A DNA stretch of 64,000 nucleotides from Candidatus Eremiobacteraceae bacterium. GTDB taxonomy: Bacteria > Vulcanimicrobiota > Vulcanimicrobiia > Eremiobacterales > Eremiobacteraceae. The notes below the pieces were generated by a model, which was not told the DNA's origin, did no database searches, and was given only the letters and a program-made list of their open reading frames with translations. The position numbers were made by a program, and so were the translations under genes. Below are positions 2,668 through 54,068 of the stretch, in pieces. The stretch spans positions 1 to 64,000 of the forward strand of contig DASTCX010000039.1 of the NCBI GenBank assembly GCA_035710745.1, given 5' to 3'. Each line of letters opens with the position of its first letter. Position 1 is the first letter of the stretch.

Positions 2668-2690
2668 CGGTCGACCGTAAAGGTCGACCG
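2668..2690 (-). repeat. Interspersed palindrome, type B, reverse orientation, solo
   Basis: Inverted repeat with arms CGGTCGACC and GGTCGACCG around GTAAA. Read on the minus strand it is the type B unit with centre TTTAC, preceded by GGAA and followed by CCGCC. It lies between rplA and the L10 leader. Confidence 0.85.
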
Positions 2691-2697
2691 TTCCAAC

Positions 2698-3404: not shown

Positions 3405-3420
3405 GCACTAAGAATTGTAG

Positions 3421-3459
3421 CGGTCGAGCTTTAGCTCGACCGGCCGAGCGCTGCTCGGC
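3421..3459 (+). repeat. Interspersed palindrome, type C, with second hairpin
   Basis: Arms CGGTCGAGCT and AGCTCGACCG surround TT (3421-3442). A second 17-nt hairpin follows at once (3443-3459), with stem GCCGAGC/GCTCGGC. The copy at 32636 has the same composite layout and the same TTGTAG prefix. It lies between rplJ and rplL. Confidence 0.88.
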
Positions 3460-3967: not shown

Positions 3968-5575
3968 GTGAGCAGCGCGACCATAGCACGCACGAGCGGC
4001 GTGCGCCAAGAGATCAACCCAGCCGAGCCTGGCCAGCGGCGCTTGGCTCTGATCAGCCTTGCCGTCATGCTCGGCATGATCATGGCGATCATCGACACGA
4101 CGATCGTCAATGTCGCGCTCAACCAGATCGGCGGCAATCTCGGCGCGTCGCTCGACGAGGTCGGTTGGGTCGCCACCGGATATCTGCTCTCGGCGGTCAT
4201 CATCATGCCGCTCAACGGGTGGTTGACCGCGAGGTTCGGACGCAAGAACTACTACGCGGTTTCGGTCGCGATCTTCACGATCGCGTCGGCGCTATGCGGT
4301 ACGGCGACGAACATCTGGCAGCTCGTCGCCTATCGCGTCATCCAAGGCATCGGCGGCGGTGCGCTCCAGCCGACCGCGCAAGCCATCCTCTTCGAGTCGT
4401 TCCCACCCGAGAAGCGTTCGCAGAGCATGGCGCTTTTCGGCCTCGGAGCGATGGTCGGGCCGGCGGTCGGGCCGCTTCTCGGCGGTTACCTCGTGTCGAA
4501 TTACAATTGGCCGCTGATCTTCTATATCAACCTGCCGATCGGCATCGTCGCATTCTTCATGGCGCTCGCCTTCATTGACGACCCGCACTACATCGAGAAG
4601 CACGAGCAGCCGCTCGACGTGCTTGCGCTCGGCTTGCTCACTATCGGCCTCGCGTCGCTCCAGTACGTCCTCGAGCGCGGACAACATGACGATTGGTTCA
4701 ACTCCCCGCTCATCATCGTGCTGACCGTGAGCTCGATCATCTGCCTCGTCGCGTTCGTTTGGCGTGAGCTGCGGGTGGAGAACCCGCTCGTCGACCTGCG
4801 CGTCTTCGCGAACCGGACGTTCACCGCCGGCAACATCGTCGGCATCGTCACCGGTTTCGGCTTGTTCGGACTGAGCCTCATCTTGCCGCTGTTCATGCAG
4901 GCGCTGCTCGGATGGGATGCGTGGCAGACCGGCGTCGCGTTGTTGCCCGGCGCGCTCGCGACGGCGCTGAGCATGCTCGTCATCGGGCGGCTGTCGAATC
5001 GCATCGATGCCCGCCTCATCATGGCCGCCGGGCTGGCGATGTTCGCGTTCTCGACCTGGGCGATGAGCCACCTGACGCAGCAATCCGGCTTCTGGGATAT
5101 CTTCTGGCCGCGGGCGTGGCAAGGTTTCGCGCTTGGCTTCATCTTCGTGCCGCTTTCGGTCGTCACGATCTCCGCGCTGCGCCGGGATCAGATCGCTAAC
5201 GCGACGGGCATCGGCACGTTGCTTCGGCAGATCGGCGGCAGTCTCGGCATCGCGTTTCTGACGACCTATCTTCAGGGCGACATCCAGCGCGTCTACGCCT
5301 CGCTTGCGTCGCAGATCAACGACGGCCGGTCGATCGTCCAACAGGCGATCGCGGCGGCAGCCGCCAGGATCATGGCGACCGGCGCGACTGCGACGGAGGC
5401 GCACCAGACGGCGCTCATGCAGATCGCTGGGCAGCTCCAGCTCAATGCGACGGCGATCGCGTACGAGGATCTCTTCCGGATCTCGGCGCTGCTCTTCTTC
5501 GTGACGCTGCCCGCGGTGCTGCTGCTCCAGAAGAGCAAGCGCGTCCCCGGCCCGGCCCCGCTGCACGCCGAGTAG
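3968..5575 (+). CDS. MFS drug efflux transporter, DHA2 (EmrB/QacA) family
   Basis: A 535-residue hydrophobic protein with about 14 predicted membrane helices. The first helix carries the DHA2 signature IIDTTIVNVALNQIGG. Motif A lies in NGWLTARFGRKN and motif C-like glycines in GLGAMVGPAVGPLLGGYLV. Such proteins are proton-driven exporters of drugs or other amphiphiles, usually pairing with an EmrA adaptor in diderms; none is adjacent. The GTG start gives an unstructured N-terminus of about 30 residues. The substrate cannot be predicted. Three palindromes follow the stop. Confidence 0.9.
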   Translation: MSSATIARTSGVRQEINPAEPGQRRLALISLAVMLGMIMAIIDTTIVNVALNQIGGNLGASLDEVGWVATGYLLSAVIIMPLNGWLTARFGRKNYYAVSVAIFTIASALCGTATNIWQLVAYRVIQGIGGGALQPTAQAILFESFPPEKRSQSMALFGLGAMVGPAVGPLLGGYLVSNYNWPLIFYINLPIGIVAFFMALAFIDDPHYIEKHEQPLDVLALGLLTIGLASLQYVLERGQHDDWFNSPLIIVLTVSSIICLVAFVWRELRVENPLVDLRVFANRTFTAGNIVGIVTGFGLFGLSLILPLFMQALLGWDAWQTGVALLPGALATALSMLVIGRLSNRIDARLIMAAGLAMFAFSTWAMSHLTQQSGFWDIFWPRAWQGFALGFIFVPLSVVTISALRRDQIANATGIGTLLRQIGGSLGIAFLTTYLQGDIQRVYASLASQINDGRSIVQQAIAAAAARIMATGATATEAHQTALMQIAGQLQLNATAIAYEDLFRISALLFFVTLPAVLLLQKSKRVPGPAPLHAE

Positions 5576-5592
5576 GCACCAACGCAAGGGAG

Positions 5593-5614
5593 CGGTCGAG
5601 ATTTATCTCGACCG
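5593..5614 (+). repeat. Interspersed palindrome, type A (array 1, unit 1)
   Basis: Arms CGGTCGAGAT and ATCTCGACCG surround TT; flanks are GGGAG before and CCGTGGCC after. First unit of a three-hairpin array between the convergent MFS and M48 genes. Confidence 0.88.
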
Positions 5615-5644
5615 CCGTGGCCATACCACTCAGATAGATTGAAG

Positions 5645-5667
5645 CGGTCGACCTTTACGGTCGACCG
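5645..5667 (+). repeat. Interspersed palindrome, type B (array 1, unit 2)
   Basis: Arms CGGTCGACC and GGTCGACCG surround TTTAC; followed by CCGCGGTC. It starts 52 nt after the first unit. Confidence 0.88.
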
Positions 5668-5696
5668 CCGCGGTCTTATCAAATGAGAGAATGTAG

Positions 5697-5718
5697 CGGT
5701 CGAGCTTTAGCTCGATTG
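5697..5718 (+). repeat. Interspersed palindrome, type C (array 1, unit 3)
   Basis: Arms CGGTCGAGCT and AGCTCGATTG surround TT, with the outer right arm mutated (CGATTG instead of CGACCG). It starts 52 nt after unit 2 and ends 12 nt before the stop of the M48 gene. Confidence 0.82.
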
Positions 5719-5730
5719 CCGGTGCCTCTG

Positions 5731-6585
5731 CTACGAGGGCTTGTAGATAAGGCTCGTGTCGGTTGTCGACTTCGTAAGACCGCTCGTGACCGTTAGTCTA
5801 CTCGAATACTTGCCGAACTGCTTCGGGTCGCTCTTAAAAAACTGCTCGATGCGCGAGATGCGATCGCTCGTCGCCGGGTGGTCTTGCACATACTGCTCGA
5901 AGCCGGCGTTGCCGTAAAGTTTTTCGAGTTTCTGGAAGAACCAGACCATGCCCCAGGGGTTGTAGCCTGCCTGGCCGGCGAGGATGACGCCCTCGTGATC
6001 CGCCTGGTATTCCTGTGCGCGGCTGAAGTTCAAAAACGCGTAGCTGCCGAGGTAATTGACGAGGTCGAACGTCATCTGATTGTGGATGAAGATGCTCAGC
6101 ACGCTGCCGATGATCTGGGCGGTCTGCGCTTTGTGGATCCGGTCCATGACGTGGCCGAGCACGAGGTGTCCGGTTTCGTGGCCGAGGACGCTGGCGAGCT
6201 CGTCCTCGTTCTCGGCCTGCGCCATGAGCGCATCGTTCACGTAGACGCTGCCGCCGGGCACCGAAAACGCGTTGACATCCTTACCCTTGACGAGGATCCA
6301 GTTCTGGTTGTACCATCGCGGCTGATTCGCGGCGGCGATCTTATCGCCCACCGCACGGAGCGCGGGATACCAGGGGGACGTGTCCTCGATCTGGTTCTGG
6401 CTGCGAAGCTGCTGGTAGACTTGGTTGCCTATCTGGCGTTCCTGATCGTGCGCGTCGGCCAAGGCTTCGCTCGGCAGCGCTGCTGCGGCGACTGCCGCGA
6501 TAGCAGCGGCGCCGGCACCCTTCAAAAGGTCGGATCGCTTGAGCAACGCGGGGTTGCAATGGAGGCAGTATTCGGCGGGTTTCAT
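5731..6585 (-). CDS. M48 family metalloprotease, exported
   Basis: A 284-residue zinc peptidase. The N-terminus has a basic patch (LLKRSD) and a long alanine-rich hydrophobic stretch (residues 22-44), resembling a signal peptide or membrane anchor. The zinc motif HETGH is at residues 136-140, with a third ligand candidate Glu192 in QEYQADHEG, the M48B pattern. The C-terminal DHPATSDRISRIEQFF is typical of BepA/YfgC/LoiP-like periplasmic M48 proteins involved in envelope quality control. No TPR domain follows. It lies downstream of the TonB-C gene on the same strand. Confidence 0.88.
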   Translation of the reverse strand: MKPAEYCLHCNPALLKRSDLLKGAGAAAIAAVAAAALPSEALADAHDQERQIGNQVYQQLRSQNQIEDTSPWYPALRAVGDKIAAANQPRWYNQNWILVKGKDVNAFSVPGGSVYVNDALMAQAENEDELASVLGHETGHLVLGHVMDRIHKAQTAQIIGSVLSIFIHNQMTFDLVNYLGSYAFLNFSRAQEYQADHEGVILAGQAGYNPWGMVWFFQKLEKLYGNAGFEQYVQDHPATSDRISRIEQFFKSDPKQFGKYSSRLTVTSGLTKSTTDTSLIYKPS

Positions 6586-8222: not shown

Positions 8223-8244
8223 CGGTCGAGATAAATCTCGACCG
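8223..8244 (-). repeat. Interspersed palindrome, type A, reverse orientation, solo
   Basis: Arms CGGTCGAGAT and ATCTCGACCG surround AA. On the minus strand it reads as type A with the usual GGGAG prefix and CCGCGGCC suffix. It lies between hppA and the TonB-C gene. Confidence 0.87.
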
Positions 8245-8261
8245 CTCCCATCAACCGATAC

Positions 8262-13637: not shown

Positions 13638-13659
13638 CGGTCGAGCTAAAGCTCGATCG
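13638..13659 (-). repeat. Interspersed palindrome, type C (array 2, inverted)
   Basis: Arms CGGTCGAGCT and AGCTCGATCG surround AA. On the minus strand it is the third unit (type C) of an inverted A-B-C array between the sigma gene and ftsY. Confidence 0.85.
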
Positions 13660-13684
13660 CTACAGACGCTCGACAAGGTCGTGG

Positions 13685-13707
13685 CGGTCGACCGTAAAGG
13701 TCGACCG
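13685..13707 (-). repeat. Interspersed palindrome, type B (array 2, inverted)
   Basis: Arms CGGTCGACC and GGTCGACCG surround GTAAA, which is type B read on the minus strand, with an ATGGAG prefix and a CCGCCACG suffix there. Confidence 0.88.
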
Positions 13708-13736
13708 CTCCATCTTTTTCTATGGCGCGATCGCGG

Positions 13737-13758
13737 CGGTCGAGCTATAGCTCGACCG
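13737..13758 (-). repeat. Interspersed palindrome, type A position (array 2, inverted)
   Basis: A fully symmetrical palindrome, arms CGGTCGAGCT and AGCTCGACCG around AT. It occupies the type A position of the inverted array and is followed on the minus strand by CCGCGATC. Confidence 0.85.
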
Positions 13759-13814
13759 TTCTATGGCGAGGCCTACCAAGGTCGAGTCGCGGCATCGTCC
13801 GAAACACCACGCAC

Positions 13815-19001: not shown

Positions 19002-19016
19002 CGACGTCTTTGGGAG

Positions 19017-19038
19017 CGGTCGAGATTCATCTCGACCG
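19017..19038 (+). repeat. Interspersed palindrome, type A, solo
   Basis: Arms CGGTCGAGAT and ATCTCGACCG surround TC, with TGGGAG before and CCACGGTCTT after. It lies between the kinase and GH125 genes. Confidence 0.87.
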
Positions 19039-22203: not shown

Positions 22204-23378
22204 CCGAAGGCCAAGCGGAATCGCTCATATCGGCTCTGACGCGAGACACGGGCGTTTACGCGGCCACGAGCAGCGCGCCGAGCGATCCGTCGGCGTGGCA
22301 TCCGGCCGAAGGCGTCGAATCGCCGCCGACCGCGACGGAGACCGACACCGACGCTCGGCGGCTACGCGCGTTCGCCCGCGATGCCGCGAAGACCGATGAG
22401 GTCGGGCGCACGCTCACGCTCGATTTGGCTTCGTATTTGCGCCGTCCGGTGCGCTGCTCGCTGAACCGCGCGGCTCCGGCGATCGCATCATCGTGGCGCT
22501 TCGGTGCGAAGATCGACGGCGGAATGGCGTGGATTGACATCGACACCGGCCTGGCGTCGGCATTCGCGGACGCCATGATCGGCGGCGATGGCACGGCGCA
22601 GATCGGGCGCGGCCGCAAGGTGCGAGGGCTTGCATCGATCGTCGCTAAGCGCATGCTCGACGCGATCGCGGCAGCCGCGGCGGTCGGACTTCGAGGCCCG
22701 GTGGAAGCCACCGCACAAGCGGACGAACACGGTCCGGCGATCGCCGGCGGTTTTTGTGCTGTTGCGATCGATCAATTCCCCTGGGCGATCGGCGTCGCCG
22801 CGTCCGTGCCCTTGGCCGCGCAGGCGAGACCGTCTCCGGTCGACGATAAACGTCGACCGCTCCATACCACCGACCCAGAGGAGGCGTTGCGGAACGCGAT
22901 CGACGCCCTCGACACGCGGTTATCCGAGCTGACCCTCAACCGCGTGATCGCGCGGCAGGCGAAGATCGAGCGAATCGACGGGGCGGAAGTCGCCGGCCCT
23001 CCTGGTGTCATCCTCGGACTCGCTTTGACGGCCGGCGGCAACGGCGTCGTCGTCGCGTTCGCGGACGCTGCAGCCGTGTCGGGTATCGCCGGCGCGGCAG
23101 CGGGCGGCGCGGCCGCATCTGCGACCGGCGTTCCAGGCGAGATCGCGCTTGCGGCAGCCGAGGCGGTGGTCCGAGATGCCCTCGAGCGCGCGGTCGTAAA
23201 TCTGCCCGCCCTTGGCGACGAGGGCCACAGAATCGTCCGTCTCTCGGACGATCCGCTCACCGCCCGGACGCCGCATCACGCGGTCGACGTCGAGGTGTCG
23301 AGCGAGGGCAAAAAGGGAACGCTCAGGGTGCTCGTGCCGTCGTGGATGCTCGTCCATCGGGAGAAGAAGGGCCGTTGA
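22191..23378 (+). CDS. FliM/CheC-like protein with two tandem middle domains
   Basis: 395 residues from TTG. The N-terminus MARLTEGQAESLISALTRDT resembles the CheY-binding peptide of FliM. Residues about 60-210 look like a FliM middle domain (LASYLRRPVRCSL, AFADAMIGGDGTA, ASIVAKRMLDAIAAA). Residues 225-390 look like a second copy (VVAFADAAAVSGIAGAAAGG, AAAEAVVRDALERA, KGTLRVLVPSWMLV). I see no SpoA/FliN domain at the C-terminus. A type B palindrome lies in frame at the domain junction. If flagellar, it would be a switch component; only FliJ- and FliO-like genes accompany it. Confidence 0.55.
   Translation: MARLTEGQAESLISALTRDTGVYAATSSAPSDPSAWHPAEGVESPPTATETDTDARRLRAFARDAAKTDEVGRTLTLDLASYLRRPVRCSLNRAAPAIASSWRFGAKIDGGMAWIDIDTGLASAFADAMIGGDGTAQIGRGRKVRGLASIVAKRMLDAIAAAAAVGLRGPVEATAQADEHGPAIAGGFCAVAIDQFPWAIGVAASVPLAAQARPSPVDDKRRPLHTTDPEEALRNAIDALDTRLSELTLNRVIARQAKIERIDGAEVAGPPGVILGLALTAGGNGVVVAFADAAAVSGIAGAAAGGAAASATGVPGEIALAAAEAVVRDALERAVVNLPALGDEGHRIVRLSDDPLTARTPHHAVDVEVSSEGKKGTLRVLVPSWMLVHREKKGR
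22837..22859 (-). repeat. Interspersed palindrome, type B-like, inside the FliM-like gene
   Basis: Arms CGGTCGACG and CGTCGACCG surround ATAAA, followed by CTCCAT as in the other reverse copies. It is translated in frame as PVDDKRRP at about residue 218 and does not break the gene. Confidence 0.85.
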
Positions 23379-28399: not shown

Positions 28400-30849
28400 A
28401 CGGTCCGGGCGAGCGCTTCGGCGAAGCGACGCTCGCCACGCTCGAGTTCCCGCAAGTCATCGAGCAGATCGCGGCGTACGCGACGTGCGACCCGGGCGGT
28501 GGATCGGTGCGAGCGTTGCGGCCATATCCGGACCGCGCGCAGGCCGAAGAAGATCTCCGGCTCGTCGACGACGGCGTTTCCATGTTCCAAGCCGGAACCG
28601 AGTTCGCATTCGGTGGAGCAGTCGATGTCGCCGACGCGCTCGACCGCGCTGAGGTCGGTGGTGTCCTGGGAGGCGTCGAGCTGCGCGATATCGCGCGTTC
28701 TGAACGCGCCCTCGCGACCGCGACCACAAAGATCAAGAAGTATTCCGACGGGCGACCGAAAGACGCCGACCCACGCTCGACCTCGCAAAGAGAAAAGGGA
28801 GCGGTCGAGATTCATCTCGACCGTCGCGGCCTTGCAGTTTTGGCTGATCAACGCGCGGATACCGCAGCTTTAATCCGTCGCCTCGAAACCGCCGTCGACG
28901 GCGACGGCGCACTGACCGACGCCGCATCGTCCGAACTCGCGCGTCTGCGCCGCCAACAGCGCTCCCTCTCGGACGACATCCGAAAACGCGTCGACTCGAT
29001 CGTCCGCGATGCCTCGACCGCCAAACTGCTGACCGAGGCGATCGTGACGACGCGGGGCGGGCGATACGTCGTGCCGGTTCGGGCCGACGCCGCCGGGCAG
29101 TTCTCGGGCGTCGTCCACGGACAGTCCGCATCGGGAGCGACCGTTTACGTCGAGCCGATGGCGTGCGTCGAGGCGAACAATCGCCTGCGAGGGCTCGAGG
29201 CAGAGGAAGAGCGCGAGACGCAGCGCGTGCTCGCTGAGTTGTCCGCGCTCGTCAGCGGACACGTCGAGGCGCTCCGCTCGAATGGCGCACTCGTCGCGCG
29301 GCTCGACTCGATCGGCTCGCGAGCGCGCTGGGCGGTCGCGACGCGCGCGATCGCACCCCGGCTTATCGAGGCGAGGAGCGTCCGCATCGCGCATGGTCGC
29401 CATCCGCTGCTGCGTCGCGCGGCCGTACCGCTCGACGTCGAGGTAGGACGCGATGCCGACGCCGTCGTCATCTCCGGGCCGAACATGGGCGGCAAGACCG
29501 TCGTGCTCAAGACGATCGGTCTGTTCTGCGTTCTCGCGCACTCCGGCATCCCGCTGCCGGCGAGCGCCGGCACCGAGATCGGCGAATTCGATCACATCGC
29601 GTGCATCATCGGCGACGAGCAATCGATCGCGAACAACCTGTCGTCGTTCGCCGCGCACCTGCGAGCCTTGCGTGCGGCCATCGAGCGCGCCGGCCCGCGG
29701 TCCCTCGTCCTCGTCGACGAGATCGGCAGCGGCACCGAGCCCGGCGCGGGTGCTGCGCTCGCGCAAGCGTGCGTCGAGGCGCTCCTAGCGGCCGGCGCAC
29801 GGGTCGTCGTGACGACACACTACGCGCAGCTCAAGGTGTTCGCGGCTTCGCGCGATCGCGTCGCGAACGCGTCGATGCTCTTCGACGCGGCTACACACGA
29901 ACCGACGTACTTGCTCGCGATGGGCGTTCCGGGCCAAAGCCTCGCGTTCGCGCTTGCGGACTCGATCGGTATGGACGCGACGATCGTCCGGCGAGCCGAG
30001 ACGCTCCAAGGCGAAGATGCGCAACGACTCGAGCGTGCTTTCGCAAATCTCGCCGAGGAGCGCGAACGCCTGCACGAGCAGTCGGCGGCGGCGGAGCGCG
30101 AACTCGACCGGCTCCGCGGCGTCGAAACGGAGCTCCGCGAACGCGTCGCGGCCGCCGAGAAGGAGCGCCAGTCGTTCGAACGCCGCGCATCCGAAGCGCT
30201 CGATCGCGCCGCTCAAACCGTCCGCGACGAGCTCATCGCGAGGGCCGAGCGCAGCGAGAGCGATGCGCGCCGCCAGCGTACGGGAACGAACGTCGATGCG
30301 ACGGACGCGATACGCCGCACGATGGCCGACATCCGGCGTAGTCTCGGTCTCGACCAGAGCGCGCCGGCGAGCGCCGCGCCGAACGCGTACAGCGTCGGCG
30401 ATCGCGTCTACGTGAGGACGTTCGGCCAGACGGGCATCGTCAGCGAAGTCTTCGAGCGCGACGTGCTTGTGACGATGGGTTCGGTGAAGGCGGTGGTCTC
30501 GCGGGCGGATCTGACGCGCGATCCGGCGGTGACGACGAAGCAAGGCGCAAGCGGGACTCGTGCGACGTCGCTGCAGCATGCGGAGTCGCGCGTGGCGTCG
30601 CTCGACGCGTCGACCTCGATCGATGTCCGCGGCATGCGGGTCGACGAGGCGATGCCGATCGTCGACAAGGCACTCGATGACGCGAGCCTCGCGGGTCTTA
30701 CGACTTTGCGCGTCATCCATGGCAAGGGAACGGGGCAGCTCGGCCGCGGCATCCGCGATTTCCTCAAAGGTCACGCGCAGGTACAGGCTGCCGCGTTCGC
30801 GCCCGACAACGAGGGCGGCACCGGCGTCACCGTCATCACGCTCCGCTAG
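28396..30849 (+). CDS. mutS2: Endonuclease MutS2
   Basis: 817 residues from a GTG overlapping gatB. The core and clamp regions are followed by a MutS ATPase domain with Walker A GPNMGGKTVVLKTIG and DEIGSGTEPGAGAALAQA, then a long coiled coil (residues about 535-640), KOW-like segment and C-terminal Smr nuclease domain (SIDVRGMRVDEAMP, VIHGKGTGQLGRGIRDFLKG). MutS2 acts in ribosome rescue or recombination control. A type A palindrome is translated in frame near residue 136 (GAVEIHLDRR), between the N-terminal helices. Confidence 0.94.
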   Translation: MNGPGERFGEATLATLEFPQVIEQIAAYATCDPGGGSVRALRPYPDRAQAEEDLRLVDDGVSMFQAGTEFAFGGAVDVADALDRAEVGGVLGGVELRDIARSERALATATTKIKKYSDGRPKDADPRSTSQREKGAVEIHLDRRGLAVLADQRADTAALIRRLETAVDGDGALTDAASSELARLRRQQRSLSDDIRKRVDSIVRDASTAKLLTEAIVTTRGGRYVVPVRADAAGQFSGVVHGQSASGATVYVEPMACVEANNRLRGLEAEEERETQRVLAELSALVSGHVEALRSNGALVARLDSIGSRARWAVATRAIAPRLIEARSVRIAHGRHPLLRRAAVPLDVEVGRDADAVVISGPNMGGKTVVLKTIGLFCVLAHSGIPLPASAGTEIGEFDHIACIIGDEQSIANNLSSFAAHLRALRAAIERAGPRSLVLVDEIGSGTEPGAGAALAQACVEALLAAGARVVVTTHYAQLKVFAASRDRVANASMLFDAATHEPTYLLAMGVPGQSLAFALADSIGMDATIVRRAETLQGEDAQRLERAFANLAEERERLHEQSAAAERELDRLRGVETELRERVAAAEKERQSFERRASEALDRAAQTVRDELIARAERSESDARRQRTGTNVDATDAIRRTMADIRRSLGLDQSAPASAAPNAYSVGDRVYVRTFGQTGIVSEVFERDVLVTMGSVKAVVSRADLTRDPAVTTKQGASGTRATSLQHAESRVASLDASTSIDVRGMRVDEAMPIVDKALDDASLAGLTTLRVIHGKGTGQLGRGIRDFLKGHAQVQAAAFAPDNEGGTGVTVITLR
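28802..28823 (+). repeat. Interspersed palindrome, type A, inside mutS2
   Basis: Arms CGGTCGAGAT and ATCTCGACCG surround TC, with GGGAG before and TCGCGGCCTTG after, the same flanks as the solo intergenic copy at 19017. The mutS2 frame stays open across it. Confidence 0.88.
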
Positions 30850-32608: not shown

Positions 32609-32635
32609 AACTAACCAACGCAATTGATCTTGTAG

Positions 32636-32674
32636 CGGTCGAGCTTTAGCTCGACCGGCCGAGCGAAGCTCGGC
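32636..32674 (+). repeat. Interspersed palindrome, type C, with second hairpin
   Basis: Arms CGGTCGAGCT and AGCTCGACCG surround TT (32636-32657), then a second 17-nt hairpin (32658-32674), stem GCCGAGC/GCTCGGC around GAA. Same composite layout as the 3421 copy. It lies between convergent genes and ends 2 nt before the hslO stop codon. Confidence 0.88.
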
Positions 32675-34078: not shown

Positions 34079-34156
34079 ACGAACGTCCGACCGGAGGAGA
34101 AGGCATCGCCTGGTCTAACGCAGGCGGAAATATTTTATGTGCCGGGGGAGACGACG

Positions 34157-34444
34157 ATGACGAAAGCAGAGCTGATCGAAGCCGTTGCCGAGAAGACCGA
34201 GCTGACGAGACGCGATGTTGGCGACGTCGTCGATACTCTGTTGGAGGTCGTCAAGTCCGCCCTGCAGCAGGACAAGAAAGTGCAGCTCATCCCGTTCGGC
34301 AGCTTCGAAGTGCGCGAGCGTCAGACGCGCGAAGGCCGCAATCCGAAGACGGGCGAGCGGCTGACGATTCCAGCACGCCGCGTGCCGGCATTCCACGCGG
34401 GCAAAGATCTCCGCGACGCGGTCAACAAACCGAAGAAGAAGTAA
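34157..34444 (+). CDS. HU-family DNA-binding protein
   Basis: 95 residues. The start MTKAELIEAVAEKTELTRRD follows GGGGGAGA. The DNA-binding arm has the signature GSFEVRERQTREGRNPKTGE, and the tail ends in a lysine-rich KPKKK. HU bends DNA and organises the nucleoid. An upstream in-frame GTG at 34139 is less likely. A three-palindrome array follows. Confidence 0.93.
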   Translation: MTKAELIEAVAEKTELTRRDVGDVVDTLLEVVKSALQQDKKVQLIPFGSFEVRERQTREGRNPKTGERLTIPARRVPAFHAGKDLRDAVNKPKKK

Positions 34445-34456
34445 AATGCCTGGGAG

Positions 34457-34478
34457 CGGTCGAGATTTATCTCGACCG
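34457..34478 (+). repeat. Interspersed palindrome, type A (array 3, unit 1)
   Basis: Arms CGGTCGAGAT and ATCTCGACCG surround TT, with TGGGAG before and CCGCGGTCTTTC after. First unit of an array between the convergent HU and GH92 genes. Confidence 0.9.
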
Positions 34479-34509
34479 CCGCGGTCTTTCGATGGCGCAG
34501 AAAATGGAG

Positions 34510-34532
34510 CGGTCGACCTTTACGGTCGACCG
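34510..34532 (+). repeat. Interspersed palindrome, type B (array 3, unit 2)
   Basis: Arms CGGTCGACC and GGTCGACCG surround TTTAC, with ATGGAG before and CCGCGGCCTTTC after. It starts 53 nt after unit 1. Confidence 0.9.
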
Positions 34533-34562
34533 CCGCGGCCTTTCGAAGCGACAGGTCGGCTC

Positions 34563-34584
34563 CGGTCGAGCTAAAGCTCGACCG
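34563..34584 (+). repeat. Interspersed palindrome, type C (array 3, unit 3)
   Basis: Arms CGGTCGAGCT and AGCTCGACCG surround AA, followed by CTACAA. It starts 53 nt after unit 2. Confidence 0.9.
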
Positions 34585-34599
34585 CTACAAACAATTTTG

Positions 34600-37500
34600 C
34601 TAGCGGGCGAAGCTCATCGGACGGTCGCCGAGCGGGATCGGCGCACCGGCACGCAGCGTTGCTAGATCGATCGGCAAACAGTCATTGTCGTCTTGATCGA
34701 CGACGAAGAGCGTCGAACCCGAAGCATCAAGGCCGACTGCCACCGGATCGAGCCCTGCCGGAATAGGCGCAAGCGCGGTCATCGTCGTCAGATCGATGCG
34801 TGACACCTCGTTCGACCCGAAGTCGGCGACGTAGAGGGTCCGATTGTCGGGCGAGACGACGAGCCCCCTCGGCGCCACGCCGACCGGGATCGGCGGCCCC
34901 GGCTTGCGCGTCGCGGTGTCGATCGGCGTGACGTCATTGCCCGCGAAATCGCTGATGAATAACCGGCGACCGTCTGGTGAGATCGCGATGCCGCGCGGAT
35001 GCGCTCCGACGATGATCGGCGCGAGCGGCGTCTCCGTGCGCGTGTCGACCGGCGTCACGTCGCCCGAATTGACGTCGACGACCCACAGTATGGAGCCGTC
35101 CGGCGAGATCGCGATGTCCTCGGGATTCTGTCCGACCGCGATCGCCTTGCCGACGACATACGTCGTCGCGTCGATCGGCACGATCGTGTTGTCGGCGCCG
35201 TTGGCGACCCAAACGGTCGAGCTGTCCGGCGACACCCGCACGCCCCACGGCGATCGGCCGACGGGGACCGTCGCTATGACCGACTGCGACGCCGTGTCGA
35301 TGACGCTCACCTGGTTCGCGCCGTTGTCGCTCGCGTAGACCCGACGCCCATCGGGGCTGATCGCGACCTCGCGCGGCAGCTCGCCGACGACGATCGGCTG
35401 ACCGACCGCGTGCGTGCGCGGATCGAACGGTGCGATCTCATTGTCGAAGAAGTTCGACACGTACGCGAGCGCAGGGGCTCGATCGCCGGGACCGATGACT
35501 CGGACGACACCGGTGACATGCGCGAGCGCAGCGCCGCTCGCCGATACACCAGAAATCGAGAAATCGTACAGTCCGCTCGGCGTGCGTGGCGCCACCGAGA
35601 CGGTCGCGTTCACCGAGCTTGCGGCAGCTGCTGCAGCGTCGAGGTGACCGCTCAAAGGCGAAATCGTCAACGGGTCTAGTGCCTGCGCCGTCCACGCGAT
35701 CGTATCAGGCGTCGTGCTCGCGTTGTCGACGGCGAATCTGAACGACGCCGACGTGCCGGCCATTAGCAATAACTCCGCCGGCGCCGGCTGCATGAGCGAC
35801 GACGCGGTGAACGCCGGGAACTTCGGTGAGCCGGCGGCATACGACGGCGGCGCGTCGGACAGTGCGCTTGCCCAGTACCGATTCGGTGTCGCGCTCGCGG
35901 CCACGAGAAGCCGCAGCGGCTTAGAGGCGTCGAACATGACCCAGCTTCGCGTCCATGGCGCGCCATCGAAGCGCACCGACCTCACATACGCGGCATCGGC
36001 AGATGCGCCCGGTGCGATGACGTCGATCGCCGCGCCGTGCGGCACGCGCACGCGTGCATACGGGAAAAGCGGCGTGCCGAGATCGAGCACAGGCGCCGCG
36101 ATATCTTGCGGATACAACCCGAGAGCGCACCATACGTACCAGGCGCTCATCGTGCCGAGATCGTCGTTGCCCGGAATGCCATCCGGCGTGTCGCCCCACA
36201 ACTGCGTCATGACATCGCGGATGACCGATTGCGCTTTCCAGGGCGCACCGGCGGCGAGATACGCCCACGGGCTGCCGATGCTCGGCTCATTGCCCATCCA
36301 CGCATACGGTTCGGCTTGGCCGGCGTCGATCTGCGTGAAGAACGCGTCGAGCGCCGCGACCGCGCGCTCGCGGCCGCCAAGCCCATCGATGAGCGCCGAA
36401 TAACCCTGCGGCACCATCCACGTGTATTGCGCTGCCGTTCCCTCTTGAAAACCGCTCTGCCCGTTCTCGGTGAGCGGCGCGCGCTCGAACGCCCCGTCAC
36501 GGTCGCGCGGCGTGATGAGTCCGCTCCAGCCGTCGAAGAGATTCGTCCAGTTCTCGGAACGCGCGGCCATCACCGACGCGGTCTGCGAATCGCCGAGCGA
36601 GCGCGCGAGCTGTGAGATGGAATAGTCGTCGAGAGAATATTCGAGCGTGAGCGACGCGCCGTTCGCGAGCGGGGCGACGTTCGTCGTATGATCGTTGACG
36701 ACGTAACCGCGCGAAAGATACTCGTCAAGACCTGGGCGTTCGACATACCAACCTTGCCCCAGCGGGCCACCCGAACGCGTCGCGCCCTTCACCATCGCGC
36801 TAAGCGCAGCGCGTGCGTCGAAATCGCGCGCTCCAAACGCGTACGCGCCGGCGATGATCGGATCGGACGGATCGCCGCCCATGACCGCCGTCTCCGCGTT
36901 GACGAGCGACCACTTCGGCAGCCAGCCGCTTTGCGCAGCCGCATGGACGAGCGATCGCATCATGTCACTCGTGCGAACGGGCTCGAGCATCGCGAGCAAC
37001 GGCACTTCGGTCCTGTAGATATCCCATCCGGAAAACGTCGCGTATTCGACGTGACCGCGATCGACGAAGTGAACTCGACCGTCGAATCCGCGATAGTGGC
37101 CGTCCGAGTCACTGTAGATGTTCGGATGGAGCATCGCGTGATAGAGCGCGGTGTAGAACACGCGGCGCTGAAGGTCGGTGCCGCCGCCGACAAGGACGCG
37201 GCCAAGTTCGCTATCCCATGCCCGATGGGTCGAGGCGCGGACCGCGTCGACATCCCACGAGTGCGCCTCGGCGCGTAGATTCGCGCGAGCACCGTCGACG
37301 CTCACCCACGAAAGTGCAGCCCTGACATTGACGGTCGGATTGACGGTCGTATCGAAAGACACCCACGCGCCCGAGCCGATACCGTTCGCTTCGTCCGCGC
37401 CTGTGTTGATCGTCTTCGCAAGCCACGTGCCGTGCGCCGCGAACGGACGATCGAAGTCGAGCACGAAGTAGACTGTGTACGTTCCCGGCATGCCGCAGAA

Positions 37501-38106
37501 CCATCCGCTCGACGCCGAGCCGACGATCTCCGTCGAGCTCGAGACGCGCACGTCGGACGTCGAGACGCCGTTCTGATTCGACGACGCATTGACAAGGATA
37601 TCGGCTTGCGGCGACGGTGGGAACGTGAAGCGGCCGAGGCCGGTGCGCGACGTCGCGGTCAGCTGGACGCGGACGCTCGGCATACCGACACGGATCTCAT
37701 AGTAGCCAGGTGATGCGATCTCCGATGCGTGCGAGAACGCCTGGGTCGCCGCTGCGGGAGCCGTCACAGGTCCGATCATCGGAAGGATGCCGGCGTCGCC
37801 GAATACGTTACAGCCCGGACCGCTCAGGTGCGTCAGACTAAATCCGGTGATGGCCGAATCGCTATAGTTGTATCCGCCGCCTGCCGGCTGCGATGGCGTG
37901 TCTGGGCTCCACTGCACCATGCCGAAGGGCGCGTCGGCGCCGGGAAACGTGTCGATCGCTCCATCGTAGCCGTTGCCGGACGTGCCGATAAGCGGATCGA
38001 CAAACGCGGCCGGATCTGCGACGACAGCGGGCGCGGCCGAGATGGGAGCGGGCGCGGCGATGAGCGCCAGCGTCATTGCGAAAGCGATCATGCGCGTCGC
38101 TTTCAA
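34600..38106 (-). CDS. GH92 alpha-mannosidase fused to a YVTN-type beta-propeller
   Basis: 1168 residues with a signal peptide. Residues about 30-760 are a GH92 exo-alpha-mannosidase: [77 protein letters not shown]. GH92 enzymes are Ca2+-dependent and act on alpha-1,2/1,3/1,4/1,6 mannosides. A beta-sandwich-like linker (about 780-880) follows, then six or seven YVTN repeats (about 885-1168), for example [20 protein letters not shown]. The propeller fusion is unusual for GH92 and may bind substrate or partner. Divergent from the rhomboid gene. Confidence 0.9.
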   Translation of the reverse strand: [1168 protein letters not shown]

Positions 38107-40009: not shown

Positions 40010-41271
40010 TGGTCGAAGAGCCGCTCTTTAGGCGCGAGTCGGGGCGGATGATCGCCGCCCTGACCCGCATCTTCGGGATCCACAACCTCGCGTTGGCAGA
40101 AGACGTCGCCCAGGACGCCTTCTGCCGCGCGCTCGAGATCTGGCGTCTGCGCGGTGTGCCAGATAATCCGGGCGCGTGGCTCATGACCGCAGCGAAGCGC
40201 CGCGCGATCGACGTGTTGCGGCGCGAGCGAACGGCGCGCCGGTTCGCGCCGGATCTCGGTCGCCTACACGAAAGCGAATGGACCCTCGTCCCTACGCTCG
40301 ACGCGTTGTTCGAGCCCTCGGCGATCAAAGACGACCAACTGCGCATGATGTTCTCGTGCTGCAGTCCGCGGCTTTCGGAAGAAGCGCAGATTGCGCTCAT
40401 CCTGCACCTTCTCTGCGGCTTCACCGTCGGGGAGATAGCGGCCGCGTTCTTGAGCGGTCATGCGGCGATCGAAAAGCGCATCACGCGCGCGAAACACGCG
40501 CTCGCCCAGTCATCGGGGCTCTTCGATCTTGCCGACCGCGACCTGCCGAAACGGCTCGCGAGCGTGCAGCGCAGCCTCTACCTGCTGTTCAATGAGGGCT
40601 ATCACGGCGCCTCACCTGAATCGTCCGTCCGCACCGAGCTATGCCGCGAGGCGATGCGCCTTGGAGCGCTCCTCGCTGACCATCCATCGACGTCGACGCC
40701 CGCGACGCTCGCGCTTTGCGCGCTCATGGTGCTCAACGCGTCTCGACTGCCCGCGCGGGTCGATGCGGTCGGCAATCTCAACTCGCTGGCGGACCAAGAT
40801 CGATCGCTCTGGGATAGGGCGCTCATCGCACGAGGGATCGAACTCCTCGATCGGTCAGCCATCGGCGATGAGCTGAGCGAATACCACATCGAGGCGGCCA
40901 TTTCGTCGGTCCATGCGCGCTCGTATGCCGCTGCAGAAACGGACTGGAAGAAGATCGCCTCGCTGTACGATCTTCTGATCCGCGCCAAGCCATCTCCCGT
41001 CGTCGCGCTCAATCGGGCCATCGCATATGGCCACGCCGATGGGCCGGACTGCGGGCTGGCCGAGATCGCCGCGATAGACGACCTGTCAAGGCTCGAATCG
41101 TATCCGTTCTACCACGCTGCGCTCGGCGAGTTCGAACTCCGCCGCGGCGATGGCGTCAAGGCGCGCGACCATTTCGAGGCGGCGCGTAAAGTCGCCCGCA
41201 ATGCAGCGGAGCGGCGATTCCTCACGCAGCGCGCCGAGGCGTGTGATGCCAAGAGCGGGGCGAGCGTGTGA
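40009..41271 (+). CDS. ECF sigma factor, ECF42-like, with C-terminal extension
   Basis: 420 residues from GTG at the YCII stop. Region 2: LTRIFGIHNLALAEDVAQDA and PGAWLMTAAKRRAIDVLRR. Region 4: LSEEAQIALILHLLCGFTVG then a helix-turn-helix (AAIEKRITRAKHAL). A C-terminal extension of about 200 residues with TPR-like helices (ADQDRSLWDRALIARGIELL) marks the ECF42/DUF6596 group, which lack a classic anti-sigma factor and use the extension for control. Its YCII neighbour is the expected target/partner. Confidence 0.88.
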   Translation: MVEEPLFRRESGRMIAALTRIFGIHNLALAEDVAQDAFCRALEIWRLRGVPDNPGAWLMTAAKRRAIDVLRRERTARRFAPDLGRLHESEWTLVPTLDALFEPSAIKDDQLRMMFSCCSPRLSEEAQIALILHLLCGFTVGEIAAAFLSGHAAIEKRITRAKHALAQSSGLFDLADRDLPKRLASVQRSLYLLFNEGYHGASPESSVRTELCREAMRLGALLADHPSTSTPATLALCALMVLNASRLPARVDAVGNLNSLADQDRSLWDRALIARGIELLDRSAIGDELSEYHIEAAISSVHARSYAAAETDWKKIASLYDLLIRAKPSPVVALNRAIAYGHADGPDCGLAEIAAIDDLSRLESYPFYHAALGEFELRRGDGVKARDHFEAARKVARNAAERRFLTQRAEACDAKSGASV

Positions 41272-41789
41272 AGGCCAAGCCCGTCGTCGACCGCGGCGAG
41301 CGTACCCGCAAGAACCATCCGCGCATCGCTAAGCCCACGCTCTCAGATCACCTCGCGGTCATGACGCGTGCGATTTTCCAGGCCGGCCTCAGCTGGGCTC
41401 AGATCGACGCGCAATGGGAGCGTCTTGTCGAGGCCTTCGAAGGCTTCGATCCGGTTAGGATCTCTCGCTACGATCACGACGACGTGCGCCGGATCCTGGC
41501 CACGCCGGGGATATTGCACAGCGAACGCAAGATCCGCGCGGCGATCGACAACGCGAAGGAGATGCTCGAGCTCGATCGGGAGCACAAAGCGTTTCGGGCT
41601 TATCTGCGCTCGCATGATACGTATGCCGATTTGACGGCCGACCTGCGGCGCAAATTCAAATACGTCGGCGACGTGAGCGCGTACTACTATCTCTTCAGGG
41701 TCGGCGAGAAGGTGCCGCCATTCGGGCGCTGGATAAAAACTGTCGAAGGCGACCATCCACGAATCCGCGAGATGGTCAAACAAAAATAG
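41268..41789 (+). CDS. DNA-3-methyladenine glycosylase-like protein
   Basis: 173 residues from a GTG overlapping the sigma gene by 4 nt. LAVMTRAIFQAGLSWAQIDA, EGFDPVRISRYDHDDVRRIL and IRAAIDNAKEMLEL match the Tag/HhH-GPD-like fold in which helices surround the DNA lesion. The zinc-binding Cys/His set of classical Tag is not evident, so this is a divergent family member. Base-excision activity is inferred. It is probably co-transcribed with the ECF42-like sigma. Confidence 0.7.
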   Translation: MKAKPVVDRGERTRKNHPRIAKPTLSDHLAVMTRAIFQAGLSWAQIDAQWERLVEAFEGFDPVRISRYDHDDVRRILATPGILHSERKIRAAIDNAKEMLELDREHKAFRAYLRSHDTYADLTADLRRKFKYVGDVSAYYYLFRVGEKVPPFGRWIKTVEGDHPRIREMVKQK

Positions 41790-41799
41790 AGATGGGGAG

Positions 41800-41821
41800 C
41801 GGTCGAGATTCATCTCGACCG
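41800..41821 (+). repeat. Interspersed palindrome, type A (array 4, unit 1)
   Basis: Arms CGGTCGAGAT and ATCTCGACCG surround TC, with GGGGAG before and CCGCGGTTAG after. First unit of an array between the convergent glycosylase-like and DUF72 genes. Confidence 0.9.
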
Positions 41822-41853
41822 CCGCGGTTAGACCCAATGAAGTGTGGATGGAG

Positions 41854-41876
41854 CGGTCGCCCTTCACGGGCGACCG
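41854..41876 (+). repeat. Interspersed palindrome, type B variant (array 4, unit 2)
   Basis: Arms CGGTCGCCC and GGGCGACCG surround TTCAC. The inner arm differs from type B at two paired positions (ACC to CCC on one side, GGT to GGG on the other), a compensated change. ATGGAG before, CCGCGGTCTG after. Confidence 0.88.
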
Positions 41877-41920
41877 CCGCGGTCTGACCTGTGCGCGATA
41901 TCGAGCTGGAGGCCCGTCTC

Positions 41921-41942
41921 CGGTCGAGCTAAAGCTCGACCG
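41921..41942 (+). repeat. Interspersed palindrome, type C (array 4, unit 3)
   Basis: Arms CGGTCGAGCT and AGCTCGACCG surround AA, with GTCTC before and CTACAG after. It starts 67 nt after unit 2, wider than in the other arrays. Confidence 0.88.
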
Positions 41943-41951
41943 CTACAGGTC

Positions 41952-42734
41952 TCAGGAGAGCGCCTCGATGCGGGCGACCAAGTCTTCGCACGTCGTCGGC
42001 GAGTGCCCGGCATAGTCGTCGCTGACGTAGACGAAGAGATCGTCGACGTTTTTGCGTGCCTTCGCGAGCAGCCGCGCCCAGGCGTCGAGCGACTCGCTTC
42101 GGTCGACCTGAACCCGATCGTAGTGCTCGAACGCGGTCAGACCCATGAGCCGTGCATAGGCGAACCCGAGTTCACTGCCTTGCTCTTCGAGCACTCGCTG
42201 TGCGAGCTCGAGGGTCGAATGCGGGCCTTCGGTCGCGGCGAGAGCGAAGCGCTGGCTGCGTGCGGCCTCGAACAGCGCGTCATCGAACCAGTCGCGGTGA
42301 CGAAGCTCGAGGACCGTGTTGACGTCGGGCGGCAGATGCTCGTCGAGGAACGTGTAAAGGCGCGTTTTGTTCGCGGGCGTCGGGCGAAAATCGCCGCCGC
42401 ATTGGAGCAGGAGCGCTCCGAGTCGCGGGCCGAGGAGCCGCGCGCGGTCGACGAACCACGTGAAGCTCTGGCCGGCATCTTCGAAATGTTTTTTATGCGT
42501 CACTTCGCGCGACACTTTGAGCGCGAACGTGAACTCTTCGGGTGCGGCGTCGCGCCATGCGACGACCGTCGACTCGCGCGGCCGCCCGTAGAACGTCGAG
42601 TCGACCTCGACCGACGAAAAAAGGCGTGCGTAGAGCGCGAGCATGTCGGGCGGTTTTGTCTCGGCGGGATAGACGGAACCGATCCAGTCCTTCTCTTGCC
42701 ACCCCATGCAGCCGATGTGAAGGCGACCCGACAT
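41952..42734 (-). CDS. DUF72 (YecE-like) family protein
   Basis: 260 residues. The family pattern is clear: IGCMGWQEKDWIGSVYP, YARLFSSVEVDSTFYGRP, FTFALKVSREVTHKKHF, GALLLQCGGDFRP, LELRHRDWF and VYVSDDYAGHSPTT. DUF72 proteins adopt a TIM-barrel-like fold; the molecular role is not established. It follows the SDR gene by 2 nt on the same strand, suggesting one transcript. Confidence 0.9.
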   Translation of the reverse strand: MSGRLHIGCMGWQEKDWIGSVYPAETKPPDMLALYARLFSSVEVDSTFYGRPRESTVVAWRDAAPEEFTFALKVSREVTHKKHFEDAGQSFTWFVDRARLLGPRLGALLLQCGGDFRPTPANKTRLYTFLDEHLPPDVNTVLELRHRDWFDDALFEAARSQRFALAATEGPHSTLELAQRVLEEQGSELGFAYARLMGLTAFEHYDRVQVDRSESLDAWARLLAKARKNVDDLFVYVSDDYAGHSPTTCEDLVARIEALS

Positions 42735-44285: not shown

Positions 44286-45614
44286 GTGCGTCATGGCGTG
44301 CTAGCGGCGTCGCTCTTGTTCTTGACCGCATGCGGTCCGGCATACGCCGGCGACGCGACGACGTTTCGCGGCGATTCCGCGCATTCAGGCGTCTACCAGG
44401 GCACCGGAGTCACCAAGCTCGCCGGCGTCAAGTGGACGTTCCACACGCACGGCTACGTCAACTCGAGCCCCGCCGTGTCGAACGGCGTCGTTTACGTCGG
44501 AAGCACGGACGGGAATGTCTATGCCGTCAGCGCCGATACGGGCACGTTGCGCTGGAAGTTCGCGACGGGCAGCCGCGTCGTCTCATCACCGGCGGTGACG
44601 AACGATGGCGTCTACCTGCTGAGCTATGACGGCTTTTTCTACGCGCTCGACAATGCGAACGGCAAGGTGCGGTGGAAGTTCAAGACGGGCGGCGAGCACC
44701 GCTTCGAAGCGCCGCATCTCCACGGCACGCTGCCCGTGAACGAGATCATGCCGGACCCGTTCGACATGTACCTATCGTCGCCGGTCGTCACCGACGGCCT
44801 CGTCTACTTCGGAAGCAGCGATGGGAACGTCTACGCGCTTGACGCGGCGAGCGGGGCGCTGAGCTGGAAGTTCAAGACCGGCGACGTCGTCCACGCCTCA
44901 CCGGCGATCGCGGGCGGCACGCTGTACGTCGGCAGCTGGGATAGCTATTTCTACGCGCTCGATGCGAAGAGCGGGAAGGTTCGTTGGCGTTTCAAGACCG
45001 GCGCGGACCCGGTCATCCACAACCAAGTGGGGATACAATCATCCGCGTCGGTCGGTCGAGGCATGGTCTACTTCGGCTGCCGCGATTCGCACCTGTATGC
45101 GCTCGACGCTGCGACCGGCGCTCTTCGCTGGTCGATCCCGACGCACGGGTCGTGGGTGATCTCGTCGCCGGCGATCGACGGCGCACACGTCTATTTCGCG
45201 ACGTCTGATAGCGGCCTGTTCTATTCAGTCGACGCGCGCACGGGCAAGGTCGGTTTCTCGCTCGACTTCAAGCAATGGCCGATGTTCTCGTCGCCGGCGA
45301 TCGCGGGCCATATGGCATATATCGGTTCGCACGACGGCAAGCTGATCGCGATCGACGTCGACCGCGGGGCAGTCGCCTGGACGTTCCGCACCGATGGGCA
45401 GAAGAAGAGCGGGGCGACGTATACGAACGCCGACGGCACGCCGAACTACGAGGCAGCGTATCCCGGTACTTTCTACGACGACCTCATCGTCGGATATTCG
45501 CGGCTCATGACCGTCGGCGCCATCATCTCATCGCCGGTCGTCGACGGCGATTCGCTCTATTTCGGGAGCACGGACGGGAATCTGTACGCGCTTCAGGTCC
45601 GACAGGACGGATAG
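44286..45614 (+). CDS. PQQ-like beta-propeller lipoprotein
   Basis: 442 residues from GTG. The N-terminus ends in LFLTACGPAYA, a lipobox with Cys near residue 17. At least seven repeats of the PQQ/BamB type follow, each with a core like GNVYAVSADTGTLRWKFATG or GNVYALDAASGALSWKFKTG. Such propellers act as enzyme scaffolds (quinoprotein dehydrogenases) or envelope assembly factors (BamB). No quinoprotein active-site features are obvious, so the role is open. Confidence 0.85.
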   Translation: MRHGVLAASLLFLTACGPAYAGDATTFRGDSAHSGVYQGTGVTKLAGVKWTFHTHGYVNSSPAVSNGVVYVGSTDGNVYAVSADTGTLRWKFATGSRVVSSPAVTNDGVYLLSYDGFFYALDNANGKVRWKFKTGGEHRFEAPHLHGTLPVNEIMPDPFDMYLSSPVVTDGLVYFGSSDGNVYALDAASGALSWKFKTGDVVHASPAIAGGTLYVGSWDSYFYALDAKSGKVRWRFKTGADPVIHNQVGIQSSASVGRGMVYFGCRDSHLYALDAATGALRWSIPTHGSWVISSPAIDGAHVYFATSDSGLFYSVDARTGKVGFSLDFKQWPMFSSPAIAGHMAYIGSHDGKLIAIDVDRGAVAWTFRTDGQKKSGATYTNADGTPNYEAAYPGTFYDDLIVGYSRLMTVGAIISSPVVDGDSLYFGSTDGNLYALQVRQDG

Positions 45615-45969: not shown

Positions 45970-45991
45970 CGGTCGAGCTAACGCTCGACCG
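45970..45991 (-). repeat. Interspersed palindrome, type C variant, solo
   Basis: Arms CGGTCGAGCT and CGCTCGACCG surround AA; the inner A-T pair is lost. Read on the minus strand it has TGTAG before and CCGCGGCCT after. It lies between the convergent ABM and S53 genes and is the last clear copy before a copy-free 18 kb. Confidence 0.82.
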
Positions 45992-46007
45992 CTACAGCTA
46001 CACGCGA

Positions 46008-53866: not shown

Positions 53867-53890
53867 GCCCACGGCTGCGCCACCAATGAA

Positions 53891-53913
53891 GCGGTCGGCG
53901 TTTTGCCGACCGC
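53891..53913 (+). terminator. Hairpin after the propeller gene; terminator or degenerate palindrome
   Basis: GCGGTCGGC and GCCGACCGC pair around GTTTT, followed by TTTCG. The outer arms CGGTCG/CGACCG are the same as in the interspersed family, but the inner arm and loop differ. It may simply be the intrinsic terminator of the upstream gene. Confidence 0.5.
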
Positions 53914-53993
53914 TTTCGTGCGCGGCGCCGAGCTTAGTGGAGCCAGGGGACCCTCGACAACCGCAAGAAGCGTAACAACAATATACACGGCGT

Positions 53994-54068
53994 CGGGCCG
54001 TAGCGAAGCCTGGTTATCGCGCCTGTCTGGGGGGCAGGAGATCGCTGGTTCGAATCCAGTCGGCCCGA
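53994..54068 (+). tRNA. tRNA-Pro (anticodon GGG)
   Basis: The acceptor stem pairs CGGGCCG with CGGCCCG, with A as the discriminator base. The D arm is GCGAAGCCTGGTTATCGC and the anticodon stem CCTGT/GCAGG holds the loop CTGGGGG, placing GGG at positions 34-36. The T arm is CTGGTTCGAATCCAG. No 3' CCA is encoded (AT follows). It is an isolated tRNA gene with a hairpin downstream. Confidence 0.95.

Follow-up and report, generated by a model that had tools for sequence, protein, structure and literature searches.

REP hairpin arrays and their RAYT genes in a genome of Candidatus Eremiobacterota

The hairpin array and its units

The window, the whole 64,000-nt stretch of DNA that was analysed, belongs to a genome of Candidatus Eremiobacterota of 2.97 Mb (G000), which was compared with its one congener (G001). 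Three hairpins of types A, B and C were identified between convergent genes for an MFS transporter and an M48 peptidase (array 1; Table 1), at the positions and with the 52-nt distance between starts that an earlier note on this DNA had claimed. The A and B hairpins were found to have perfect 10-bp stems, with G-T wobble present at two stem positions of the C hairpin. Folding as ssDNA gave -12.4, -13.5 and -8.5 kcal/mol for A, B and C, respectively (z of -5.0, -4.5 and -2.9). Arrays 2 and 3 of the window were likewise located with hairpin starts at 34457/34510/34563 and 41800/41854/41921, as previously described. The recurrence of the A-B-C order reported in the earlier note is correct, with the orientation of units, which it had left unread, now giving A+B+C+ for array 1 and A+B+C- for the other two.

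Each hairpin was identified as the core of a directional unit consisting of an unpaired 5' head, a stem-loop and the tail CCGCGGYCTT. This unit, a REP (repetitive extragenic palindrome), is approximately 40 nt in length, with a GGAG (types A and B) or GTAG (type C) head, a hairpin of 9-10 bp and a loop of the TTT/TTC type. The head was GGAG in 80 of 85 type A units and GTAG in 48 of 54 type C units. Type C possesses the GTAG-like 5' head and GC-rich palindrome of REPs of the GTAG superfamily, whereas the GGAG head of type A is unlike the published GTAG/GYAG/GYRG/GTRG/GTMG variants of this superfamily at its second base.

Table 1. REP units, arrays and neighbouring genes identified in the window
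Feature	Position	Strand	Remarks
Single REP type B	2668..2694	-	
REP type C, then directly a type-D-like hairpin (GCCGAGCGCTGCTCGGC)	3417..3459	+	D-like part 3443-3459
MFS transporter gene (PF07690)	3968..5575	+	left of array 1, its end lying shortly ahead of the array
REP type A (array 1)	5588..5627	+	GGAG head, hairpin 5592-5615 (GCGGTCGAGATTTATCTCGACCGC), CCGTGGCC tail
REP type B (array 1)	5640..5678	+	GAAG (degenerate GGAG) head, hairpin 5644-5668, CCGCGGTCTT tail
REP type C (array 1)	5693..5728	+	GTAG head, hairpin about 5696-5719, degenerate tail
M48 peptidase gene (PF01435)	5731..6585	-	right of array 1, convergent
Single REP type A	8223..8248	-	
Mosaic array C- B- C+	13638..13762	.	orthologous site in congener: C+ C+ B- C-
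Single REP type A	19013..19038	+	
Single REP type B variant	22837..22863	-	kept in congener
Single REP type A	28798..28823	+	orthologous site in congener: type B
REP type C with adjoining type-D hairpin	32632..32674	+	D part 32658-32674; congener: C present, D absent
Array 2, A+ B+ C-	34452..34588	+	between convergent HU-like (34139-34444) and GH92 (34600-38106) genes
Array 3, A+ B+ C-	41795..41946	+	between convergent methyladenine glycosylase (41268-41789) and DUF72 (41952-42734) genes
Single REP type C	45970..45995	-	

Several of the REP copies in the window are singles that do not follow the A-B-C order. A hairpin with a REP-like stem of different sequence (AAGCGGTCGGCGTTTTGCCGACCGCTT) was found at 53889-53915, just ahead of a tRNA at 53994, and may represent a terminator or else a REP in decay. 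Tandem imperfect repeats of 66-70 nt (families D2 and D7), spaced 120-192 nt apart, were also identified at 44463-45593.

Copy number, placement and order of the REP types

A search with a strict pattern (GCGGTCGA-N8-TCGACCGC) identified 319 copies in the genome of the window and 195 in its sole congener, with 0-2 copies in each of 59 other relatives and no matches for the backward control of the pattern. Exact copies accounted for 82% of type A, 65% of type C and 43% of type B in the genome. Statistics on arrays rest on 864 kb of stretches of this genome, on which 186 REPs (85 A, 47 B and 54 C) were found at 112 places, 67 of these being singles and 45 being clusters of two to seven units; a mononucleotide-shuffled copy of the same 864 kb gave no matches. 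With simple, rough gene calls (coding fraction 0.855), 111 arrays could be placed, twelve inside called genes and 99 outside. The intergenic arrays were distributed over convergent (50), co-directional (44) and divergent (5) gaps, yet convergent gaps make up only 98 of the 454 gaps. High copy number, extragenic position and restriction to one lineage, as known for REPs of the GTAG superfamily, were thus all observed.

A fourth REP-like type, D (GTAGTAGGCCGAGCGAAGCTCGGC), was identified with 59 strict copies genome-wide and 38 core copies in the congener, with none found in 12 other members of the family. It often adjoins type C, and one such C-D pair of approximately 50 bp (G000:C25:74393) is missing from the orthologous site of the congener.

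The order of types was found not to be random, in agreement with what the earlier note had anticipated. The arrangement A+B+C- occurred three times among the 45 multi-REP arrays of the sample compared to 0.24 expected (P 0.001), and twice in the congener compared to 0.2 expected (P 0.015), although these P values are to be taken as guides only, as local duplication is not accounted for in the shuffles and the congener sample was picked for its REP content. This excess is driven by the inverted pair B+C-, observed 11 times in the sample (2.5 expected) and six times in the congener (2.3 expected). Furthermore, A+A+ was seen 23 times (8.4 expected) and C-A+ was never seen (4.7 expected), with the congener displaying the same tendency in order and polarity. 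Many orders besides A-B-C are present in the 864 kb. Clusters of REPs and inverted pairs of A+ or B+ with C- both occur, with tandems of the same orientation at least as common as the latter.

Comparison of spacers showed the A-B spacer cores of different arrays to have an identity of 0.42 (0.41 when shuffled), with B-C spacers reaching 0.54 between arrays (0.44 when shuffled). Spacers inside one tandem array were near copies of each other, at 0.87 for A+A+ and 1.00 for C+C+. The spacer of the B+C- pair is 29 nt long (IQR 28-30) and has shared ends (CCGCGGYCTT ... GTCGTCTC), with middles that differ between loci. Type C units within pairs of A+ or B+ with C- often carry a GAGACGACC tail that replaces CCGCGG.

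RAYT genes and their cognate REPs

Two Y1 transposase genes coding for REP-associated tyrosine transposases (RAYTs) were identified in the genome, at C25 (RAYT-C) and at C31 (RAYT-A), their products being 61% identical. Both lie above the cut-off of the NCBIfam model REP_Tyr_transpos (NF047646; 89.2 and 94.6 vs 80 bits), retain the HUH motif (D-H-I/V-H) and the tyrosine, and have TnpA_REP (4er8) as their only PDB relative by sequence. The gene at C25 is situated between inverted type C REPs and that at C31 between inverted type A REPs, the same being the case in the congener. A Y1/HUH protein of RAYT-type profile flanked by two inverted cognate REPs is the arrangement published for the association of RAYT genes with REPs (PMC2817692, PMC3733652).

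The A and C clades of RAYTs each unite the two species (supports of 0.99 and 0.96) and, as judged from this grouping, are older than the split between them. The flanks of both genes are orthologous in the two genomes, with chromosomal position kept, so that both genes can be regarded as old residents. The pairing of the A clade with A REPs and of the C clade with C REPs, along with the presence of other REPs in each related genus, is the pattern expected of RAYT-REP coevolution.

RAYTs were found in 10 of 14 genomes of the same family using a family-profile search, which performed better than scanning genomes with the RAYT protein itself, as the latter reached close relatives only and found few of them (five). 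Nearly every RAYT checked in this family is flanked by inverted hairpins of its own sequence, with one copy (L039) having upstream hairpins only at the threshold used. The heads of the flanking REPs across the family are GTAG, GGAG, GAAG or GTGG. Those at L028 (G003), L029 (G002) and L030 (G009) are GAAG, GTGG and GGAG, respectively, indicating that the head varies within one family. Two REPs of related genera were counted, one with 194 copies in G005 only and the other restricted to its genus, with 187 copies in G012 and 15 in its congener G003. Decaying RAYT genes were also observed, with an in-frame TAG in L024 (G007) and, in L037 (G010), a second copy that is truncated.

A search for a third RAYT able to serve type B found none, and neither type B nor type D was found to have a cognate RAYT in either congener. 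Having no RAYT of its own, type B may be an older family whose enzyme has been lost, or else be served in trans by RAYT-A, whose type A REPs it matches in head and tail.

Turnover and origin of the arrays

The earlier note had suggested that A-B-C is one composite element and had proposed examining whether its copies move as one unit. At the orthologous sites of the congener, the four A-B-C arrays of the sample were found to correspond to A+A+, A+, A+C- and A+A+A+, meaning that all four differ in composition and none is A-B-C. The site of array 2 has A+ only, and that of array 3 has A+C-, with the B unit missing. Approximately 560 bp of unrelated sequence (L122 8160-8737) occupies the place of B and C at the former site. 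A hand count over 27 orthologous REP sites gave four with the same composition, 18 with REPs in both species but in different composition, and five with REPs in just one of the two. The differences between orthologous arrays concern single units. Fairly clean empty sites were few (C25:74393 and C102:6964), with the insertion junction not fixed to the base, and insertion of a whole B+C- pair with an empty site was not seen in this comparison of orthologous sites.

Array 1 is thus best described as a BIME-like cluster of REPs, a mosaic assembled unit by unit and spread by RAYTs, and not a composite element (probability of roughly 0.93). The mosaic nature of the arrays is indicated by congener sites that are never A-B-C and by A-B spacers whose similarity between arrays does not exceed that of shuffled sequence. 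Two transposase-like genes, the RAYTs being domesticated transposases, have probably scattered these REPs hundreds of times. Copy number, RAYT linkage, coevolution and unit turnover were observed among these genomes, with no movement observed.

By analogy with the RAYTs of E. coli, Stenotrophomonas and Marinomonas, each RAYT (HUH with a single catalytic tyrosine) would bind the hairpin of its cognate REP in single-stranded form. Cleavage would then occur at CT, a dinucleotide that the head selects, and be followed by strand transfer (PMC8266576), so that REPs, single or as inverted pairs, would be spread into ssDNA. The head bases A3 and G4, thought to select CT, are present in both GGAG and GTAG, and the conserved CT of the REP tail is only suggestive of such cleavage. 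Arrays may grow where a REP is already present, partly through local tandem duplication of one REP with its spacer, a step supported by the near-identical spacers within arrays. They may also change when single units, or a pair of A+ or B+ with C-, are gained or lost, which is supported by the congener comparison. The A-B-C order would then be a favoured outcome of turnover and not a mobile composite. REPs at intergenic 3' sites are probably retained for two reasons, insertions being least harmful in such places and hairpins being able to stabilise the 3' ends of mRNAs; this step is a surmise.

One reading that does not conflict with the unit-by-unit mosaic, and in part belongs to it, is that an inverted pair of A+ or B+ with C- constitutes a REPIN-like mobile unit, the leading A being separate. 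The excess of B+C- in both genomes, its tight 29-nt spacer with shared ends, the B-C identity of 0.54 and the altered tail of C would all fit such a unit; however, the spacer middles vary by locus, an empty site for a whole B+C- pair is lacking, and at array 3 the congener is without B only and retains A+C-. This pair can therefore be put forward only tentatively as a mobile unit, the odds being somewhat against it. That RAYT-A (GGAG) and RAYT-C (GTAG) would jointly excise or copy such hetero-pairs as a unit, with orphan B as a substrate of RAYT-A in trans, is rather unlikely; if true, joint action would yield the observed polarity, in which A+ or B+ precedes C- and the reverse almost never occurs.

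It is also unlikely, slightly more so, that the hairpins were selected as bidirectional transcription terminators between convergent genes. All three A-B-C arrays of the window and half of the intergenic arrays do lie in convergent gaps, and the hairpins are strong, but those of arrays 1-3 are not followed by a U-tract and 44 arrays occupy co-directional gaps. Selection as terminators would moreover leave unexplained why heads are specific to each type and why RAYTs are associated with the REPs, and relatives are without this REP family; termination could still hold as a secondary effect. A composite A-B-C element, inserted and copied whole, is very improbable despite the excess of A+B+C- in both genomes and the regular spacing, given that gain or loss of a whole array together does not appear in the site comparison, A-B spacer cores are as unlike as shuffled ones, the orientation of C in array 1 is opposite to that in the other two arrays, and many other orders occur. 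CRISPR-like arrays, known regulatory RNAs or arrays of protein-binding sites share short and regular repeats with these hairpins and can practically be dismissed, as tRNAs were the sole matches of an Rfam search, copies are dispersed genome-wide and the palindromes bear transposase-linked heads.

As a mosaic of REPs, the arrays resemble the REP/BIME and RAYT/TnpA_REP systems (REPtrons) of E. coli, Stenotrophomonas and Pseudomonas (PMC2817692, PMC3733652, PMC8266576) in their head tetranucleotide, GC-rich palindrome and short loop. Shared as well are the more than 100 copies, the inverted cognate REPs around the RAYT, the lineage-specific REP sequence, the mixed-type clusters and the bias towards convergent and co-directional 3' gaps. 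They differ in the GGAG head of types A and B, in types B and D being without a cognate RAYT, and in the frequency of head-tail tandem pairs, which are scarce in most known REP families. REPINs (PMC3116915) share an inverted REP pair of conserved spacing as the likely replicating unit, whereas the pair described here is a heterodimer of two types, with no RAYT found for B and a variable spacer middle. The HUH single-tyrosine transposase family and hairpin recognition are shared with IS200/IS605; unlike these, RAYT-C scores 33.5 bits against an IS200 cut-off of 55 and both RAYTs are positionally fixed in the congeners.

The hairpins are an ordinary REP/BIME/RAYT kind of element in an unusual host. 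The REPtron literature cited above does not name Candidatus Eremiobacterota, and no prior report of REPs in this phylum turned up in the literature searched. The known range of REP/RAYT systems is hereby widened to an uncultured phylum, one family of which holds several independent RAYT-REP pairs. The paralogous GGAG/GTAG pair of RAYTs represents a natural experiment on head reading, a step tested with few enzymes so far, and the congener comparison indicates that the turnover of REP arrays proceeds by single units while their sites stay fixed.
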